DNA from: a virus
Virus record (IMG/VR): IMGVR_UViG_3300021579_000001
Location: 27,323-91,322 of that record
Direction: 5' to 3' (one strand)
Length of the DNA stretch: 64,000 nt
Both the position numbers and the translations under genes were made by a program. The notes beneath the pieces are model-generated. The model saw only the letters and a program-made list of their open reading frames with translations. It was not told the DNA's origin and did no database searches. Shown here in pieces: positions 7,695-42,749 of the stretch (its first letter is position 1; every line of letters begins with the position of its first letter).

Positions 7695-8354
7695 CTAAGA
7701 AACTAGTCCACGTGCGATGGTCAGCAATTCCTCGCGAGGCGTGAGAGTAATTACTGATTCTTCGTAACGCACAGCTTGAGCAACAAGGTCAGCCACATCA
7801 TCAGGGTCAATCTCGAACTCTTCAGCAAGGTCGGTGGCACGTACACGCTCTAGGGTGTACTGAGTGTCACGGCCCATACCAAGGCGCTTGATTTCCCAGA
7901 AGTAGCGAGTTAGAGGACCCTTCTTAGGGTCATCGTTTGCTGCTTGAAGAAGTTTTGCAAGAGTTGGAACAGCAACCATTACCTGTACGGTAGGCTCCTC
8001 TTCGTTCAACACGAGCACGTTGAATGCGAACTTAGGGCGTGGCTTGTCACCAGCGATAGTGCAGAGTGGGCAGTCGCCACCTGTACATACGAATGAACGA
8101 CGACCTTCAGTGCGGTCAATCCAGTGTTCTTCGTAGACCTTGAAAGGACCATCGTCAAGGAAGCGGACAAGAACGCCCTGCTCTGAGAACTTCAAAAATG
8201 AAGCGTACTTGCTGTCTGAGGTTGAAGACTTCTTCTTTAGGAAGATGTCTGCAGCAGCCCATCCAGCCTGAACTGTAGTACCGTGCTTTGGTTCTGCAGC
8301 TGGCTCATCATCAATCAAATAAGCGTCTGCGTCAATAATCGGGCGGTTAATCAT
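7695..8354 (-). CDS. gp32-like single-stranded DNA-binding protein
   Basis: A 219-aa protein. A core beta region with VRFLDDGPFKVYEEHWI is followed by a zinc-binding loop with Cys90, Cys95 and Cys98 (CTGGDCPLC). A second strand region follows (KFAFNVLVL, VQVMVAVP). The zinc-containing OB-like layout matches T4 gp32-type SSBs rather than bacterial SSB. The C-terminal acidic helical region (FEIDPDDVADLV) would contact replication proteins. It likely coats single-stranded DNA and aids polymerase, RecA and helicase. It is followed by a strong terminator. Confidence 0.75.
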   Translation of the reverse strand: MINRPIIDADAYLIDDEPAAEPKHGTTVQAGWAAADIFLKKKSSTSDSKYASFLKFSEQGVLVRFLDDGPFKVYEEHWIDRTEGRRSFVCTGGDCPLCTIAGDKPRPKFAFNVLVLNEEEPTVQVMVAVPTLAKLLQAANDDPKKGPLTRYFWEIKRLGMGRDTQYTLERVRATDLAEEFEIDPDDVADLVAQAVRYEESVITLTPREELLTIARGLVS

Positions 8355-33732: not shown

Positions 33733-33850
33733 TTTTCTTTGCCTTTTTCTTCAACTTCTTGCCTTTAGGCGTGTCTTTTTCCCACTTCTTAGCCATCTCA
33801 GGGTCATTGGCGTACATCCATGCTCGCTGAGCGGCACTTTTAAACGGCAT
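33719..33850 (-). CDS. Tiny conserved phage protein (MPFKS-type, 43 aa)
   Basis: A 43-aa frame from ATG 33850. MPFKSAAQRAWMYANDPEMA then KKWEKDTP is the signature of a small family encoded in many phage genomes near head and tail genes. A lysine-rich tail follows. It overlaps the neighbouring starts by 11 and 14 nt, typical of the compact block. Function unknown. Confidence 0.8.
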   Translation of the reverse strand: MPFKSAAQRAWMYANDPEMAKKWEKDTPKGKKLKKKAKKNGRK

Positions 33851-34415
33851 TTCTAGGGTCCGTTGTTGGGGCAGGGGCGTATCTTTGGAACTGTGGGTCG
33901 TTTACAAGCTCTTCAGGGTTTACCTGGTTGCAGTCCACGGTAACAACTGTCCAACGGTAACCGAATGAACCTCTAGGAAGAACTCTAGTAGGAATAAACA
34001 CCTCACCACGATAGAGGATTCTGTCCTTAATGTGGTTATTTGCATCGCTTACTAGTGATGGCAAAAGGCGGTTAACATCTCCCACGTTTATCACTAGGCG
34101 CAGAGTATCAGTGACATAAAAACCGCGCTCGTTCATTACGTTAGTTGAACGAATAAACTGGGCCATTACTACAGGCATTTTGAAAGGTAACATCCATCGC
34201 CTACCTTGACCCACTACAGACGAAGAAACATCATAGATAGGGTCTACGATAGTGGAATAGTTTGCATCTAGGTATTCTTTTTGCCAACGAAACCAGTCAA
34301 CGTCTACCCCGACGGTACCACCAAGTTCTTCAGCGATACCTTCATAGATAGACTTTGACTCGTAATCCATCCCAAATCGGGAGTTACGGTCGCTTCCCTC
34401 TTTACCGCCACGCAT
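33840..34415 (-). CDS. Neck/head-tail connector-like protein
   Basis: A 191-aa protein. It has DYESKSIYEGIAEELGGTVGV, DPIYDVSSSVVGQGRRWML and DTLRLVINVGDVNRLLP, with a C-terminal RGSFGYRWTVVTVDCNQVN region. The beta-barrel pattern and position suggest a neck (gp13/gp14-like) or head completion protein. No enzyme motif. Assignment mainly by neighbourhood. Confidence 0.6.
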   Translation of the reverse strand: MRGGKEGSDRNSRFGMDYESKSIYEGIAEELGGTVGVDVDWFRWQKEYLDANYSTIVDPIYDVSSSVVGQGRRWMLPFKMPVVMAQFIRSTNVMNERGFYVTDTLRLVINVGDVNRLLPSLVSDANNHIKDRILYRGEVFIPTRVLPRGSFGYRWTVVTVDCNQVNPEELVNDPQFQRYAPAPTTDPRNAV

Positions 34416-34416
34416 T

Positions 34417-35895
34417 TTACTTGCTTTCTAATGCAGTAATTCGAGCTTCAAGAGCCGAGATTTGCTCAGCTTGTTTTCTAACGACTAACTGCAAAGCCGA
34501 TACATAGAACTCGTAGTTTACTGTTTCTGGCAAGTTTTCAGCATCATAAGAAACAAACCCATGAAGACCTGCATCATGAACATCCTCTGCGATAAAACCA
34601 GCATGCTTTGGGGCAGTGTCTGCCTCTTCGTTATAGTGGTACTGAACTGGCGCTACTGACAACACTTGCTCAGCTGTGTACCCAAGTGGTTCAATGTTTT
34701 TCTTGAATCTACGGCTAGAAGCTACGTAGCCTAAGCTATCAGGAGCAGTTGAGGAAGTTACATAAACTGAGCGGTAAGACGTCGTAAGCACATTGGTGTA
34801 TACGTTAGCCGCAAAGACATTCCCTGATGAGTTAGTTCCCAGAATTGCCGTACCGTTGTACCAAAAACCAGCAGAGCTAGAGGATACTTTAGCTTGATAC
34901 GAGGTACTTGCTCCGATGTTTGTTGAGTTACCTGATGTAGCATTGATGCTAAAGGTATACGTTGACGCTGTACCTATTTCGTTAGCGTCAATAATGACAC
35001 CTGTGCTGGCACCGTTATTAAATCTTGTAACTCCAGCAAAGGACTGAGATGCGTTTAGTTTGGCATATGCGGTATCAGTAAAGCTAAGAGTACCTGCGCT
35101 AAGAACAAGCGGGGCGCTAGCTGATACCACACCTGTTGCGCCTGTTGCACCTGTAGTTCCCTGAGGTCCAAGAGGGCCTTGTGCACCAGTAAGCCCAATG
35201 CTTCCAGCCGCACCTTGAGCACCAGTTGCACCTTGAGCACCAGCTCCAGTTGCTCCTTGGATACCTTGAGTTCCCTGAGCTCCGACTCCAGCTGCACCTT
35301 GCGCACCTGTTGCACCTTGTGCTCCTGAACCAGTCGTACCTTGTGCACCAGTTGCTCCTTGGGTAGCAATACCCAATCCTCCCTGAATGCCCTGTGAACC
35401 CTGGCCACCTTGGATACCTTGGATACCTTGAGCTTGAGCAAACCCAAATCCTTGAACTCCTTGGGTTCCCTGTGCACCCTGGGCAGCTGCAGTTCCAGCG
35501 ACACCCTGTGCTCCAGTAGACCCTTGAATTCCAGTAGAACCAGTAGTTCCAGTAGAACCTTGAGCACCAGTTGCTCCTTGAGCACCAGTAGTTCCTTGAG
35601 CCTGAGCAAAGCCAAATCCTTGAACACCTTGAGTTCCCTGGGCTCCAGTGGCACCTTGTGTTCCAGTGGTTCCTTGAGTTCCCTGAGGACCCTGTAGTCC
35701 TTGCAGACCCTGTATTCCTTGGATACCTTGAGCAGATTGGTACGGCAAAGCTGCCCAAAGGCTAGAGCCATTACCGATTTTAAACTTTAAAGTGTCTGTT
35801 TCAAAACCTAGTTCACCAGCTGCTAGCTGGGGGTTAGCTGTGGTCCAGTTGGCCGCAGTGTCTCTGCGGTGCTTAATGACTGATTGCGCGGGCAT
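34417..35895 (-). CDS. Collagen-like tail fibre with S74 self-cleaving chaperone
   Basis: A 492-aa protein. The N-terminal adhesin-like domain ([28 protein letters not shown]) is typical of phage fibres. Residues about 60-255 are Gly-x-y triplets (GTQG, GAQG), a collagen-like trimeric shaft. A beta domain and the C-terminal S74 intramolecular chaperone follow: [12 protein letters not shown] with the cleavage Ser, [13 protein letters not shown], then coiled-coil [14 protein letters not shown]. It trimerises and self-processes to give a mature fibre. Ribosome-binding site GGAGG. Confidence 0.9.
35110..35735 (-). repeat. Collagen-like triplet repeats (fibre 1)
   Basis: Tandem 9-bp-type units encoding Gly-x-y (GAQ, GTT, GTQ) make up the fibre shaft. 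The unit series also generates large spurious frames on both strands. Such arrays are prone to unequal recombination. Confidence 0.85.
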
Positions 35896-35961
35896 AAAAC
35901 CTCCATAAGTCTTCCATACTATTGTGGCGTATTACTAGTCGCATTACTTGCTAAGTAGAAA

Positions 35962-35989
35962 GTACCGCCCTCCAAGTGGAGGGCGGTAC
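35962..35989. terminator. Perfect GC-rich hairpin between divergent genes
   Basis: Arms of 13 bp (35962-35974, 35977-35989) around a 2-nt centre. On the minus strand it is followed by TTTCTACTT, on the plus strand by no U-tract. It lies between the divergent fibre gene and the plus-strand cassette, and may stop antisense transcription that has run through the cassette. Confidence 0.6.
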
Positions 35990-36046
35990 CGTACCTTGTC
36001 GGGTATTTTGTTCCTACCTGCACTGCGAGGTAAGTCTTTTGGGAGC

Positions 36047-36075
36047 TTGTCAGCTATCATTGCCTTAGCTATAAT
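36047..36075 (+). promoter_or_regulatory. Sigma70-type promoter of the plus-strand cassette (leaderless)
   Basis: TTGTCA (36047-36052), 17-bp spacer, TATAAT (36070-36075). Transcription would start about seven bases downstream, at the A of the ATG at 36082. No ribosome-binding site is visible, so the mRNA is probably leaderless, which is common in Actinobacteria. Confidence 0.75.
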
Positions 36076-36081
36076 TGTACA

Positions 36082-37095
36082 ATGAACAACTTAGTGCAAA
36101 CAGCTGTAAGTCTTGGTGGCAGACTAGCTCCAATCGTAATTCCTAATGGATTGACTTCTGGAACAGGATTGATGAACCCATCCGTGTTCGTAACCAATGA
36201 CGGCAAGATTTTAGTTAATCTACGACATGTAAACTATACCCTGTATCACTCAGAAAATACTCAAAAGTTTCCAAGCAGGTGGGGACCATTAGCGTACCTT
36301 CACCCAGAACAAGACCTTACTTTGCGAACCATTAACTACCTAGTTGAACTATCGCCTTCCTTTGAGGTTAAGAACTACTCGCAAATTGACACCTCTAAGC
36401 TCGATAAGCCTCCTATTTGGGAGTTTGCAGGGGAAGAAGACTGCAGGCTAATTGAGTGGGACAATGACCTATACATTATTGGTGTTCGTAGGGATACCAC
36501 TGACAATGGTCAAGGCCGTATGGAGTTGAGCAAGCTAAACGTTACTGACGACTTTGTAGTAACCGAAGTGTCTCGAGAACGCATCCCTGCTCCAGGAGAC
36601 GACTCCTCATACTGCGAGAAAAACTGGATGCCTATTCTTGACGCTCCTTTCCGCTTTGTGAAGTGGACTTCTCCCACAGAGGTAGTTGAGGCAAAAGTTA
36701 TCAGCGAGGGTGCAGTTGAGTGCCATCAAGTATCTCTGCAGCATGGCGTCACCACTAACGTGGACCAACGAGGCGGCTCGCACGTAGTCCCATGGGGGGA
36801 CTATTACATTGCGCTTACTCATGAGGTAAACCTGTTTAATAACTACCTTGGTCAAAAAGACGGGGTGTATCGACACAGGCTAGCCGTATGGAACAGAGAG
36901 TTTGTGTTGGTTGGGCTAACCCCAACACCGTTTAGTTTCCTAGAAGCGGAAATCGAGTTTGCATGTGGCGCAGCCAAGTTCGGAGAAGACCTTTTAGTCA
37001 CTTTTGGGTTCCAAGATAACGCTGCGTACATCCTTCAACTTCCAAATGAACTAGTTGAAACCATGATTGAGGAAGCCCTTTCGTATGGTAAATAA
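36082..37095 (+). CDS. Beta-propeller glycoside hydrolase/phosphorylase-like protein (GH130-like)
   Basis: A 337-aa protein. Repeated blade motifs: NPSVFVTNDGKILVNLRH (N-terminal), EFAGEEDCRLIEWDNDLYIIGVRR, SYCEKNWMPI, RGGSHVVPWGDYYIALTHEV and FACGAAKFGEDLLVTFGF. The E-D-x-R and G-G-S/T patterns fit five-bladed GH130-like propellers that act on mannosides. It lacks a signal peptide, so it acts inside the host. It is read from the opposite strand to all surrounding tail genes and has its own promoter. It may remodel a sugar of the fibre or the host; precise substrate unknown. Confidence 0.7.
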   Translation: MNNLVQTAVSLGGRLAPIVIPNGLTSGTGLMNPSVFVTNDGKILVNLRHVNYTLYHSENTQKFPSRWGPLAYLHPEQDLTLRTINYLVELSPSFEVKNYSQIDTSKLDKPPIWEFAGEEDCRLIEWDNDLYIIGVRRDTTDNGQGRMELSKLNVTDDFVVTEVSRERIPAPGDDSSYCEKNWMPILDAPFRFVKWTSPTEVVEAKVISEGAVECHQVSLQHGVTTNVDQRGGSHVVPWGDYYIALTHEVNLFNNYLGQKDGVYRHRLAVWNREFVLVGLTPTPFSFLEAEIEFACGAAKFGEDLLVTFGFQDNAAYILQLPNELVETMIEEALSYGK

Positions 37096-38365
37096 CATCA
37101 ACCAACTTATAGTTGACTTATCAACAGACTCTCTGAGCCCACAAAAGAACCTGGTTTTGGGTATTGAGTACGAGAACTTGGGGCAACTGGCATCTGCTAT
37201 CTCCTTTTACCTTCGAGCAGCAGAGTACGGGTACCACTCAGAACCTTTAGTGGTCTATAGCGCCCTACTCAGGGCTTCTACCTGTTTTGAGAAACAGCAA
37301 CATAGAGCACACACCGTTAGCAACTTGCGACTTCAGGCTATGGCGTATCTTCCCACTCGACCTGAGGCGTATTTCCACATGTCTAAGTTTTACGAGCAGC
37401 AAGCTGATTGGCAAGAATCGTACAGCTTTGCAATAGTAGGTAAAAACTTTTCCCTAGAGGCTACCCCGCTACCTGTGTTTGTAGACTACCACGGGGAGTT
37501 CTGTTTAGACTTTCAGCAAGCAGTAGCCGCGTGGTGGATTGGGCGTGAAGAAGAATCCCTTCAACTTTTGAACTATCTATCTACTCTAGACCTTCCAGAA
37601 GTGTACCGAGTTGCGGTAGACAGCAACCTGGCTAAGCTACAGACAAAGAAGCCTTTGCATGAAGAGCTCGCTGAACGGTCAAGTACTTTCCGAGGCTTGC
37701 TAAAAACCAAAGTGTGCAAAGATGCAAACTACATTCGCATGGGCAGCCAACATGACGGAGGGTACATTTACGTCAACGATTTCTCTAAATCTGACTACGT
37801 GCTTTCTTTTGGTGTGGATAAGAACGTTGACTGGGAGCTTGATGCCAGTAAGTTTGGTTGCCACATTGACATGTACGATTATTCGGTAGATGGTCCACCA
37901 GTAGAAGTTCCGAACTCCAAGTTCTACAAAAAAATGATTGGACCAGAGTTTGAGCAAGTAAGCCTAGAACAGGCAGCGTCTAAGTCCAAAAAAGACCTAA
38001 TCCTAAAAATGGACATTGAAGGTAGCGAGTGGGCAGTTCTTGCTCAAGCGTCTACCGAAGTCCTCAGCAAATTCCGACAAATAAACATTGAGTTTCACGA
38101 CGCTTACATGCTAGAAAATGAGCTGTTTTACTCTACAGCCATTTCAGCACTAGAAAATCTACGAAAAACCCATACCCCAGTACTAGTGCACGCAAATAAC
38201 AACATCCCACTTATGGTTATCGGTAGCGCCCCATTGCCACCAGTATTCGAAGTGCTGTTTCTGCGTAACTCTAGTTATGAGCTTGAAGAGCCAGTTGACC
38301 AGTTTGCAGGGCTATTGACTCGAAACGACACTACTATTCCTGAAGTTTCTTTGTCGTTCCCTTAA
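37085..38365 (+). CDS. TPR-containing FkbM-like methyltransferase
   Basis: A 426-aa protein started at ATG 37085 (GAGGAAG nine bases upstream); a TTG at 37067 is an alternative. The N-terminal about 190 residues are TPR-like helices (SAISFYLRAAEYGYHSEPL...). The C-terminal half is an FkbM-type Rossmann methyltransferase: RMGSQHDGGYIYVND, YVLSFGVDKNVDWELDASKFG, LILKMDIEGSEWAVL and FRQINIEFHD. FkbM enzymes O-methylate sugars. It is coupled to the propeller gene (11-nt overlap), so the two probably act on the same glycan. It ends 3 bp before the convergent fibre gene. Confidence 0.8.
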   Translation: MVNNINQLIVDLSTDSLSPQKNLVLGIEYENLGQLASAISFYLRAAEYGYHSEPLVVYSALLRASTCFEKQQHRAHTVSNLRLQAMAYLPTRPEAYFHMSKFYEQQADWQESYSFAIVGKNFSLEATPLPVFVDYHGEFCLDFQQAVAAWWIGREEESLQLLNYLSTLDLPEVYRVAVDSNLAKLQTKKPLHEELAERSSTFRGLLKTKVCKDANYIRMGSQHDGGYIYVNDFSKSDYVLSFGVDKNVDWELDASKFGCHIDMYDYSVDGPPVEVPNSKFYKKMIGPEFEQVSLEQAASKSKKDLILKMDIEGSEWAVLAQASTEVLSKFRQINIEFHDAYMLENELFYSTAISALENLRKTHTPVLVHANNNIPLMVIGSAPLPPVFEVLFLRNSSYELEEPVDQFAGLLTRNDTTIPEVSLSFP

Positions 38366-38368
38366 CTA

Positions 38369-40558
38369 CTATGCCCAACCACCCACAGATACTGCCGAGG
38401 CATTTCCTATCTGTGTCAGAGTCATGTAGTTACCTGCGTCTAAGGTTACAGTTCCACCAGTTAAAGTAGCTGCAAATTGGTACGAAGGGGCGATAGTTCC
38501 ACCGCTGCTAATAGTTACCATTCCCTTTCCCATAACGATGTAGGTTCTTGGGTTAGCGGCAGATGTCGGAGAAACAGCGATTGAAGTTGCGGTTCCTGTT
38601 GAGGTGTACCAGTATTGACTTGATGCACCACCTACGGAGTTTGCTCCAGTGCCAAAAAAGGTAAAATTTCCAGCCAGGTTTCCCGCTCCTTGAATGTTAA
38701 AGTTCAATACAGAACCAACGGTAGAGCCTGATACCGCTACTTTGAAATAAATTTCATAAAGGTAAGTTCCAGCCTGAAGAGAGATAGTATCACGAGCTGC
38801 TGGGAATATCGCATAGTTGGTGTTTAGGGTAATGCCTGAAGTACCCACTCCTGAGGTTATGGAAAGAGCAGGAATTACCGAGCGTCCTTGACCACCAGAA
38901 TCTCCCGTGGCGTAGAACACGGGGTTTTGATACTCTATCACACCGTTAGTTGGGATAGTCATCAAGCTTGCTTGGGTAGTAAACTTTATCGGGGCTAATG
39001 TAGTGGAACCAGTAGCCAATACCAACCCAGAACTCAGGGTTCCTCCAGAGAACGTTGCTCCAGAAATTCCTTGAATGCCTTGAGCTCCAGCGGTACCTGT
39101 GGCACCTTGCGCTCCATCTAGACCTGAGGTACCTGTTGCTCCCTGAATACCAGTTGCACCTTGTGTGCCCGTGGCTCCTTGCGCACCAGACCCAGTAACA
39201 CCTTGAACTCCTTGAGTACCTTGAGTACCTTGAGGCCCAGTTGAGCCTGTCGCTCCTTGAGCACCTGACCCAGTAACACCTTGGATACCTTGGATGCCCT
39301 GCACACCTTGCGACCCATTGGTACCATTAATGCCGCTAATTCCTTGAACTCCCTGAGTTCCAGCTCCTGTTGTTCCTTGGGCACCCGTACCTCCCTGAAT
39401 ACCTTGGATACCTTGTGTACCCTGCACTCCTTGGATACCTGTTGCTCCAGTCGTTCCTTGTGCCCCTGTTGCACCAGTGGTGCCTTGAGCGCCAGTTGCT
39501 CCTTGAATACCTGTGGTTCCCGTGTTACCAGTGATTCCTTGAACACCTTGGATACCCTGTATTCCTGTCGCACCTTGCGTTCCTGCACCAGTAGCCCCCT
39601 GAGCTCCAGTCGCACCTTGGGTACCCGTGGCTCCTTGGATACCAGTAGTCCCCGTAGCCCCAGTGAGTCCCTGTATTCCCTGAATACCAGTAAACCCTTG
39701 GGTACCTGTAGCCCCCTGAGAACCCTGCGCCCCAGAGGTTCCAGAAACTCCTTGAATACCTTGGATACCTTGAACGCCCTGAACACCTTGAGTTCCTTGG
39801 ACACCTTGAGTACCAGTAACTGATTTGTTCTTCCAAAGGTTAGTTGCGCTTTCCCAAACCACAGCTTGACCATCAGTAGGAGAAGAAATGGCGACGTTAT
39901 GGAGTTCGTCCAGTTCGTACCCGTTCTGGATTTTGACCAGGATTTCTCCATTTACAGGGTTAGAGCGAGTGACCACACCGACATAAACAAGGTGATTAGG
40001 TGCAGAAGGCTTATTAGCCAAACCAAACACCAAACCACCAGCAGTAGTAGGAGAAAGAAAAACAGGGTCACCAGCACTAGCCATAGACGTGTCAACATTG
40101 GATAAAAGACCATCAGTTACCACGTAACCTTTACCATTAGTAGCCAAGTCCTGCTCAAGAAGGCCTAAAGTTCTCGAAGAGGTAGCCTCAGTGTTTGCTT
40201 TAGCCAGCCTAACCAGCACGTTTGTTCCGTCAGCACCGTAAGTGTAGACTGCTTGAGCTTTAGTAACGGCAGCTCCAGTGTCGTTTTTAACGTAAGTGTG
40301 CAACCGTTCAATGACTGAAATGTTATCTTGCCAAGAAGCGTCGAAGCTAGTAGTAGAGTTCTTTGTTAGAATCTGTCCAGCAGTACCGCCAGTAGGAAGG
40401 GACGTTCCTTGGTAAGGAAGTCCTGACCAAACGGTAACTCCGTCACCCAACTTGAACTTAGACGTATCACTTTCAAACCCAAGTTCACCTGCAGCAAGGA
40501 TAGGGTCAACTGAAAGCCACGCAGCTTGGGTGCCTCTTTTATGCGAAAAAGTAATCAA
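38369..40558 (-). CDS. Collagen-like tail fibre 2
   Basis: A 729-aa protein. The N-terminal domain ([35 protein letters not shown]) is a paralogue of the fibre 1 start. A beta domain (about 75-235) precedes a long collagen-like shaft (about 250-500). The C-terminal domain has [20 protein letters not shown] and ends AVSVGGWA, a jelly-roll/C1q-like tip shared with fibre 3. It likely forms a trimeric receptor-binding fibre. Confidence 0.85.
39060..39820 (-). repeat. Collagen-like triplet repeats (fibre 2)
   Basis: Long run of Gly-x-y codons (GIQG, GATG, GTQG). Repeat units recur with near-identical DNA, a likely site of length variation by slippage or recombination with the other two arrays. 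Confidence 0.85.
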
Positions 40559-40589: not shown

Positions 40590-42749
40590 CTAAGCCCAAG
40601 CACCTGTTGAAGCGGTTGTGCCTGAGTTGGACAATGGGGTGATGACCAAAAAGTTTTCGGCGTAAAGGTTAGCAACTCCTGATGTGAGAGCCGCGCTCCA
40701 TTGGATAGACGGAATAATTGTTCCAGCGGTTGTGATGCGTAGAACGCCTTGCCCGCTGGTGATGTAGTTTCGAGCTGTTGAAGCCGTGGTGCTGGTGATG
40801 GTCAACGCTAAAGCGATGCTTTGAGCAGTTGATTGGGAGATGTTAGCCGCGCCCAAGTTGCCCGCGCCCGCAAATGAGTTCACTGTGTAGCTGGCCGTTC
40901 CCACAGCTGTGCCACCGCCACGCATTGAGAGCTGCATCGAAGCTGAAACTGCCGATGTTGCGACGCTTGCTTCAATCGCAAACTCGAACCGATACGTGCC
41001 GATAGGCAGCGTGATGGTGTCGTTAGCTGCTGGAAAGATTGGGTAGTTTGTTGCTGTTGCAATTCCTGGCGCAGTTCCCAGCCCCGAAGTGAAAAGTGGT
41101 GTAGCCAATGGCGCACGACCAAGTTGGTTATTAACTGTCAGCGCAAGCACTTGACCGTTGAACTCTACTGCACCTGCGCTAGGTGGTGATGCAGACAACG
41201 TTCCAGCGGTGAAGTTGATTTGACCAAATGAACCATTTTGAGTTGCGGTAATAATGTTTGGGATTGACAAAGTTCCCGTTGCGTTTATGCTCGCGGTTGC
41301 TGATGCCGCACCAATCGACCACCATTCTTGCAAAGCAAACGGGCCTGTGTTGCCGTTGTCGTTTGTGCCGTTGATTTTGATTGCTGGGCCTGTTGCAGCA
41401 ACCTGTTCGCCACCAGCAATGAGACCAACAGTGAAAGTTGGAGCATTTGCGAAAGTGCAAGTGCCAGTATTTGACACTTTGAAGAAGCTCACGCCAGCGC
41501 TGTTTTGCACGTCAAATACGTTGGCCGTTTGCGAGGCCGCGGCTTTGAGAACAACAGGAACGGTCGTGGCGTTTTGCGCGACGATGGTTTGTGTTGCTGA
41601 TGGTGTGAGAGATACACCGCCACCAGTGCCGTTAGAAGCTGCAGTGATACGGCCTTGAGCGTCAACAGTCAAGTTAGTGTTTGTATAACTGCCTGCTGTG
41701 ACTGCCGTGTTAGCCAACCCCAAAACAGCCGAAGTAGACGTACCACTATTAGTGATTGGTGCAGAGACTGACAGAACACCCGAAGGACCTGTTGCTCCTT
41801 GGATACCCGAGGTACCTGTGCTACCAAGAATACCTTGAATACCTTGGGTACCTTGAGCTCCGACTCCAGTGGAACCTTGAGTGCCAGTGGCACCTTGGAT
41901 ACCTGTGGTTCCTTGAACTCCTTGAGCTCCCGTGACACCTTGGGCACCAGTCGCACCTTGAAGTCCTGTGAGCCCAGTAACTCCTTGGACTCCTTGTATG
42001 CCAGTACTGCCGATAGTTCCTTGAATACCTTGTGCACCAATTGCACCTTGGATACCTTGAGCGCCAGTTGGCCCAATGTCTCCATTTCTAGCAAAAGTTA
42101 TGCTTACTGGGAGTAAGTTGTCAAAAGTAGTGGCTGGACCAGATACGTACGCAATAGGTACTTCAAAGTAAGTGTCATGGTGATAGTGGTTACCTACTAT
42201 AGAAAAGTAGGCAAAGTTATTTGGATTACCGTTAGCAGATAGTTTAAATGTGCCCTTGATAGGTGAGCTACTGTCGTCAATGGTAGTAAGAAACGCTGAG
42301 ACGTCAACTCCAGAGCTATCGTAGTATGAAATAAACAACTGAGTTGATGACGGTAACGCTGCGTCAAACTTTAAGTTACCCAAACCTGGGTTAGAGTCGA
42401 CGGTGTCCGTTAAAAAATTATAGGAAAATGTAGCCCCACCAAAGTTTCCCGTAGTTCCCTGAGACCCTGTGGTTCCTTGCACACCTTGAGTTCCTGTTGC
42501 ACCTTGGGTTCCTGTTGCACCTTGGGCACCAGTGATGCCTTGTGCACCAGTAGTTCCTTGAGCACCAAGAGTTCCCTGAACACCTTGAATACCCTGAGGT
42601 CCTCTTTGGTTAGGTACACCTGGTAGCAAAGAAATGTCAATAGCAGGATAGCCTGGGCTACTAGGGTTTGGAGAAGTTCCTAAAAGCGAGACATCTACTG
42701 CAGGATTTTGCGGTACGCTATCTGGCGGTGTTGATGGGTTTACACTCAT
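40590..42749 (-). CDS. Collagen-like tail fibre 3 with atypical tip domain
   Basis: A 719-aa protein. A Pro-rich start ([15 protein letters not shown]) is followed by a collagen block (42450-42610), a beta domain with [16 protein letters not shown], a second collagen block and a long Ala/Thr-rich tip ending TASTGAWA. The tip matches fibre 2 ([20 protein letters not shown]). The 3' part (about 40600-41680) has noticeably more GC-rich codons than its surroundings, suggesting recent acquisition of a receptor-binding tip. It starts by ATGA overlap with the connector gene. Confidence 0.85.
41775..42615 (-). repeat. Two collagen-like repeat blocks (fibre 3)
   Basis: Gly-x-y repeat DNA occurs at about 41775-42085 and 42450-42610, separated by a non-collagen beta domain. 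Repeat units resemble those in fibres 1 and 2, so inter-gene recombination is possible. Confidence 0.8.

Follow-up and report, generated by a model that had tools for sequence, protein, structure and literature searches.

The window, as we call the whole 64,000-nucleotide stretch of DNA analysed here, is a portion of a 91,322-base virus record and carries a cassette of two genes among collagen-like fibre genes. The first, P1 (36082..37095, plus strand), encodes a 337-aa GH130/GT108-like propeller. The second, P2 (37085..38365, plus strand), encodes a 426-aa fusion of a TPR module (residues 1-187; 37085..37645), the conserved partner of the propeller, with an FkbM-type methyltransferase domain (approximately residues 196-426; 37670..38365), the exchangeable part. 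Both frames are open on the plus strand and, given the ATG at 37085 as the start of P2, have in common the 11 nt originally predicted; an alternative in-frame TTG at 37067 would extend this overlap to 29 nt. Open reading frames together with Pfam matches to Collagen and Mtd_N confirm that the two genes oppose the flanking fibre genes, which lie on the minus strand and contain Gly-X-Y repeats. An Mtd_N domain starts two of the three neighbouring fibre genes (34417..35895 and 38369..40558) and an S74 chaperone ends one of them (34417..35895); the third, recognized by Pfam as collagen-like, occupies 40590..42749 on the same strand. Its capsid and sheath proteins most closely resemble those of BRock-group Streptomyces myophages (56-57% and 34-39%, respectively), and on this comparison the host of the phage is therefore likely to be actinobacterial.

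The promoter and the intergenic region

The promoter of the cassette (36047..36075, plus strand; TTGTCA-17-TATAAT) matches 11 of 12 consensus bases, and its -10 element ends 6 nt ahead of the P1 ATG. In 88 of 111 distinct relatives, TANNNT precedes the propeller ATG at a distance of exactly 6-7 nt; an SD-like sequence precedes it in 2 of 111. The same motif occupies this position in 76 of 821 genes from long related records (Fisher P 2e-55 versus the propellers), a rate somewhat underestimated because these genes were counted from the first ATG of each ORF; within the window, P1 alone of 51 genes possesses it. This conserved distance between -10 element and ATG upholds the earlier claim that the genes have their own promoter, and the promoter belongs to the cassette unit. 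Given how near the -10 element lies to the ATG, the P1 mRNA is predicted to be leaderless. Leaderless mRNAs are common in Actinobacteria.

A hairpin of 13 perfect pairs (35961..35990) is terminator-like for minus-strand transcripts. Beside it lies a short conserved element of approximately 45 bp with a small inverted repeat, ACCTTGTCGGG...TTCCTACCTGCA..GC.AGGTAAGTCTT, which occurs at 35988..36039 of the window and in L298 (1956-2006), L302 (7377-7421), L309 (5296-5340), and L315 (approximately 8049-8088). The element is present also in relatives without the cassette and has the appearance of a punctuation signal or small-RNA element belonging to this group of phages. A search of the intergenic region against Rfam yielded nothing above cut-off.

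Fold, partners, and distribution of the propeller

An AF2 model of P1 built from 44 sequences (pLDDT 86, pTM 0.87) predicts a five-bladed propeller of the GH130/GT108 type. The top 39 Foldseek matches are all GH130, GT108, or putative glycosidases of such type, and the best neighbours among solved structures comprise beta-1,2-mannobiose phosphorylases as well as GDP-mannose transferases of Leishmania (E 6.5e-9 to 1e-6), at TM scores of approximately 0.5-0.6 and 10-16% identity. A profile of the P1 family matches nine bacterial GH130 proteins with an E of 1.9e-6. In a joint alignment, N32, R48, E119-D120-x-R122, and D312 of P1 fall on GH130 invariants, and these residues are invariant across 14 phage relatives of 35-67% identity; with K180 they constitute the putative active site. 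The residues that matter in BT3780 are N74, R89, D142, and D363 (PMC4599007), whose counterparts in P1, by sequence alignment alone, are N32, R48, D120, and D312. The model contains a low-confidence insert at residues 55-78, and the R136-R137 motif of P1 is missing from the GH130 set aligned. Uncharacterised pithovirus LCPAC proteins show TM scores to P1 of approximately 0.72-0.75, above any solved structure.

Searches with P1 against Pfam, PHROG, and NCBIfam matched no family model above chance. P1 is unmatched by Pfam PF04041, and every phage relative tested falls below the curated cut-off of that model (26 bits; best 21.4 bits), several divergent relatives touching it at sub-threshold scores near the ED-x-R motif. 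A PDB sequence search with P1 gave nothing usable, and a weak match to the lectin PLL2, which covered a single repeat and faded once a profile was used, was discarded. P1 is thus labelled at the level of fold and motif only, as a modelled GH130/GT108-type propeller. At this level the original prediction of a GH130-like propeller is borne out, as the fold matches in the model and the putative active-site residues are conserved. The viral structural neighbours of P1 include proteins of giant viruses that bear the names fucosyltransferase, WcaK-like pyruvyl transferase, and LicD, and these neighbours of the model point to glycan building rather than breakdown.

Residues 1-187 of P2 are modelled as a helical-pair TPR solenoid (pLDDT approximately 97) with designed TPRs, OGT, GmaR, and SPY among its Foldseek matches; Pfam TPR models match it below cut-off only. 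Against PF05050 (FkbM) P2 scores 22.8-24.6 bits at a cut-off of 22.7, the lowest margin being 0.1 bit, and against TIGR01444 (FkbM) it scores 27.5 bits, under the cut-off of 37.7. The TPR-FkbM-like label first given to P2 therefore holds for the TPR fold and, at the margin, for PF05050, but fails for TIGR01444; searches against family models likewise leave the GH130 label of P1 without a match. In the P2 model, residues 191-291 stay below pLDDT 50, probably because the aligned C-terminal domains lack homology along their full length. The methyltransferase has a single close viral relative, 55% identical, in L082, where it forms a separate gene ahead of the TPR gene. TPR and FkbM are also separate genes in L309, a near relative with the cassette, so that the fusion in P2 represents one arrangement among several; across the wider family, the TPR module is either standalone (approximately 187 aa) or fused. 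Hydropathy analysis of the cassette proteins detected no membrane-spanning or signal-like segments.

Viral contigs contain relatives of P1 in at least 599 stretches, and a search begun with the TPR module agrees with the one begun with the propeller. The propeller lies directly upstream of the TPR gene in 149 of 153 distinct TPR proteins. The four without an adjoining propeller comprise two contig edges, L082, in which a methyltransferase gene lies between, and a second TPR protein of L024, encoded by a GT2-TPR gene. Linkage of this order rules out P1 and P2 as two unrelated insertions, an outcome that would have counted against the original prediction. Assigned by HMM across the 153 units, the third partner is an FkbM-type methyltransferase, fused or separate, in 85, a fused TylF-like methyltransferase in 12, GT25 with or without Methyltransf_24 or ATP-grasp in 20, and ATP-grasp alone in 1; it is unrecognised in 35. 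The protein of DSL-LC02 combines FkbM with radical SAM-SPASM, and that of S-SCSM2R contains DUF6445. Directly behind the propeller-TPR-MT unit in two further contigs (L089, 7131-7910; L090, 3611-4372) lies one gene joining CTP_transf (cytidylyltransferase-like) to MannoseP_isomer (mannose-6-phosphate isomerase cupin). The constant partner of the propeller is thus the TPR module, and the methyltransferase is an exchangeable add-on. The pairing had been described as one of propeller and methyltransferase that would be new in phages; instead, the conserved pair is propeller and TPR, the third enzyme swaps, and the pairing extends beyond this phage to viral contigs in their hundreds and to two annotated records of Synechococcus phages.

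Among 50,697 annotated phage records, two contain the unit and one, DSL-LC01, gives a remote propeller-only match. Names given by annotators in records with cassette genes are 'beta-mannosyltransferase', 'MGP protein', and 'CcmH/NrfG'. The open-licence literature yielded no paper on the propeller-TPR pair or on GH130 with a phage methyltransferase, which is weak evidence of absence, and the text of the Dishui Lake paper reporting DSL-LC01 and DSL-LC02 leaves the pair unmentioned. A scan of genome contigs recovered only five relatives of P1, four of them on contigs below 9 kb. L087, L088, L090, and L091 are propeller contigs of 3-9 kb inside bacterial or archaeal MAGs labelled Chitinophagaceae, Verrucomicrobia, Pirellulales, and Woesearchaeota; they are probably stray phage contigs.

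Sister loci were collected using the neck-side gene at 33840-34415 as bait; 50 of them extend 5.5 kb or more upstream, and 9 of these 50 contain the cassette. The cassette is an accessory, moron-like, self-contained transcription unit; its own promoter and this patchy occurrence agree with the moron proposed at the outset. In 15 sister loci the fibre region encodes a glycosyltransferase composed of GT2 and a related TPR module, 14 of them without a propeller in the stretch covered. Propeller-less fibre regions with the GT2-TPR fusion include those of L301, L302, L303, L306, L316, L321, and L322, and in L024 propeller, TPR-MT, and GT2-TPR genes are consecutive. A PHROG related to the fusion is labelled beta-1,4-glycosyltransferase, and the solved chain nearest in sequence to its GT2 domain is GmaR. 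Of the functional hints that the unit carries out sugar transfer, this replacement of the cassette by GT2-TPR in sister phages is the strongest.

A proposed glycan-building module and its alternatives

Of 16 long records, 15 contain collagen-repeat genes, and 0.29-5.8 kb separate the propeller from the nearest of these (combined P 4.5e-4 versus random placement, a generous value given that the contigs are related to each other); G072 (64 kb) has none, but this record ends near the cassette. In DSL-LC02, a Kyanoviridae cyanophage from a lake-water assembly, the order is collagen-like gene (minus), propeller and TPR-FkbM (plus), and tail fibre gene (minus). This layout and the closeness to collagen repeats make a fibre acceptor likely; the nearness itself may reflect only a hypervariable region. 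The cassette of L309 likewise opposes an adjoining collagen-like fibre gene. Many relatives are co-oriented with the fibres, and a functional meaning of the opposite orientation was rejected.

We propose, with a probability of roughly 0.5, that the cassette encodes a cytoplasmic, moron-like module that builds or decorates a glycan, with the collagen-like fibres of the phage itself as the most likely target. Expressed separately, the module would assemble and decorate this glycan in the cytoplasm of the host. Its propeller would make or remodel a beta-mannoside-type linkage in a GT108-like or a reverse-acting GH130-like manner, the TPR module would hold the propeller or the acceptor protein, and the fused methyltransferase would cap the product, the collagen-like fibres being its most probable destination. 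We favour glycan building because of the fold, the invariant residues, the giant-virus neighbours, the propeller-TPR linkage, and third enzymes that handle glycans or small groups, and because of the GT2-TPR genes of sister phages, the collagen proximity, the layouts in DSL-LC02 and L309, and the lack of membrane or signal segments by hydropathy. Third partners, the CTP_transf and MannoseP_isomer gene, and the sister GT2-TPR enzymes also support the theme of glycan modification put forward originally. Against this reading stand the absence of a direct family match for P1, its low TM scores and identity, and the 35 units with unrecognised third partners. A search for GT2 and PF01050 genes across the 91-kb record found none, so the donor and the initiating sugar would be the host's.

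More tentatively, the cassette may represent a new type of widespread protein glycosylation, in which a TPR adapter, also employed by GT2-type enzymes, would recruit a transferase of GT108/GH130 fold that extends or caps glycans on collagen-like fibres, and the third enzyme, interchangeable among methyltransferase, GT25, ATP-grasp, and radical SAM, would diversify the coat and hence host recognition. Fibre glycosylation, if true, would offer aquatic phages a common route to vary their coat with the fibre gene unchanged, and a prokaryotic counterpart to the collagen glycosylation of giant viruses. The propeller may also be a new beta-mannosyl transfer enzyme. S-SCSM2R, with its listed host Synechococcus WH7803, is a tractable test phage.

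The same enzymology could instead act on a host surface glycan, changing the receptor during infection and excluding other phages. Fibre-region glycosyltransferases of pelagimyophages were read by their authors as altering the host surface or receptor (PMC7029224), and an exchangeable methyltransferase would suit antigenic variation. The cassettes do adjoin the fibres that decide host recognition, but it is with the fibre genes that they are linked, no membrane or lipid-carrier component was seen by hydropathy, and one family serves both actinobacterial-like and Synechococcus phages, whose hosts differ in their envelopes; we regard a host surface acceptor as unlikely. Degradation, in which the propeller would phosphorolyse or hydrolyse a beta-mannoside of the host and thereby supply metabolism or uncover a receptor, appears improbable: the nearest solved enzymes include phosphorylases, and GH130 contains hydrolases too, but hydropathy detected no secretion signal, catabolism offers no evident role for the methyltransferases or for the constant TPR partner, and the genome-contig scan recovered few relatives, mostly on short contigs. 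The position among fibre genes and the use of propellers as binding domains (compare the weak PLL2 match) could fit a role without catalysis, as part of the virion or as a chaperone of fibre assembly, the methyl group then going onto the fibre protein itself; this reading is similarly improbable given the invariant putative catalytic Asp and sugar-binding residues, the predicted leaderless promoter, and the GT2-TPR glycosyltransferase that takes the place of the cassette in sister phages.

The closest known systems each share part of this arrangement. The GT108 enzymes MPT-1, -2, and -4 of Leishmania (PDB 6q4w-6q50) are five-bladed propellers that P1 matches in structure (6q4x, 6q4w, 6q50) and that require an Asp for activity, D94N being described as inactive in 6q4z; their identity to P1, in contrast, is approximately 10%. 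No GT108 enzyme is known to us to occur in phages or to pair with a TPR protein. The GH130 phosphorylases and mannosidases (7fir, 5b0p, BT3780) share the fold, and their N, R, ED-x-R, and final D align with P1, whereas the phage relatives stay below the Pfam cut-off and P1 has the insert at 55-78 and the R136-R137 motif. GmaR (7x9r; sequence match 22ao) resembles the cassette in that a TPR module is tied to sugar-transfer machinery, yet in the cassette the putative catalytic part is a separate propeller and a GT-A domain is absent. Actinobacteriophages such as Che8, Corndog, and Myrna possess virion glycosylation clusters that modify tail or capsid proteins, whereas propeller homologues in annotated phages are confined to two Synechococcus phages and DSL-LC01. 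In chlorovirus PBCV-1, A064R unites a glycosyltransferase and a methyltransferase in one protein and the virion glycan is methyl-capped (PMC9614988), a virus-encoded sugar transfer with methyl capping to which the predicted activity of the cassette bears a likeness; PBCV-1, however, is a eukaryotic virus, and A064R has neither propeller nor TPR. Glycan modification by phages is already known, and what is new here is the fold, the adapter, and the exchangeable third enzyme.
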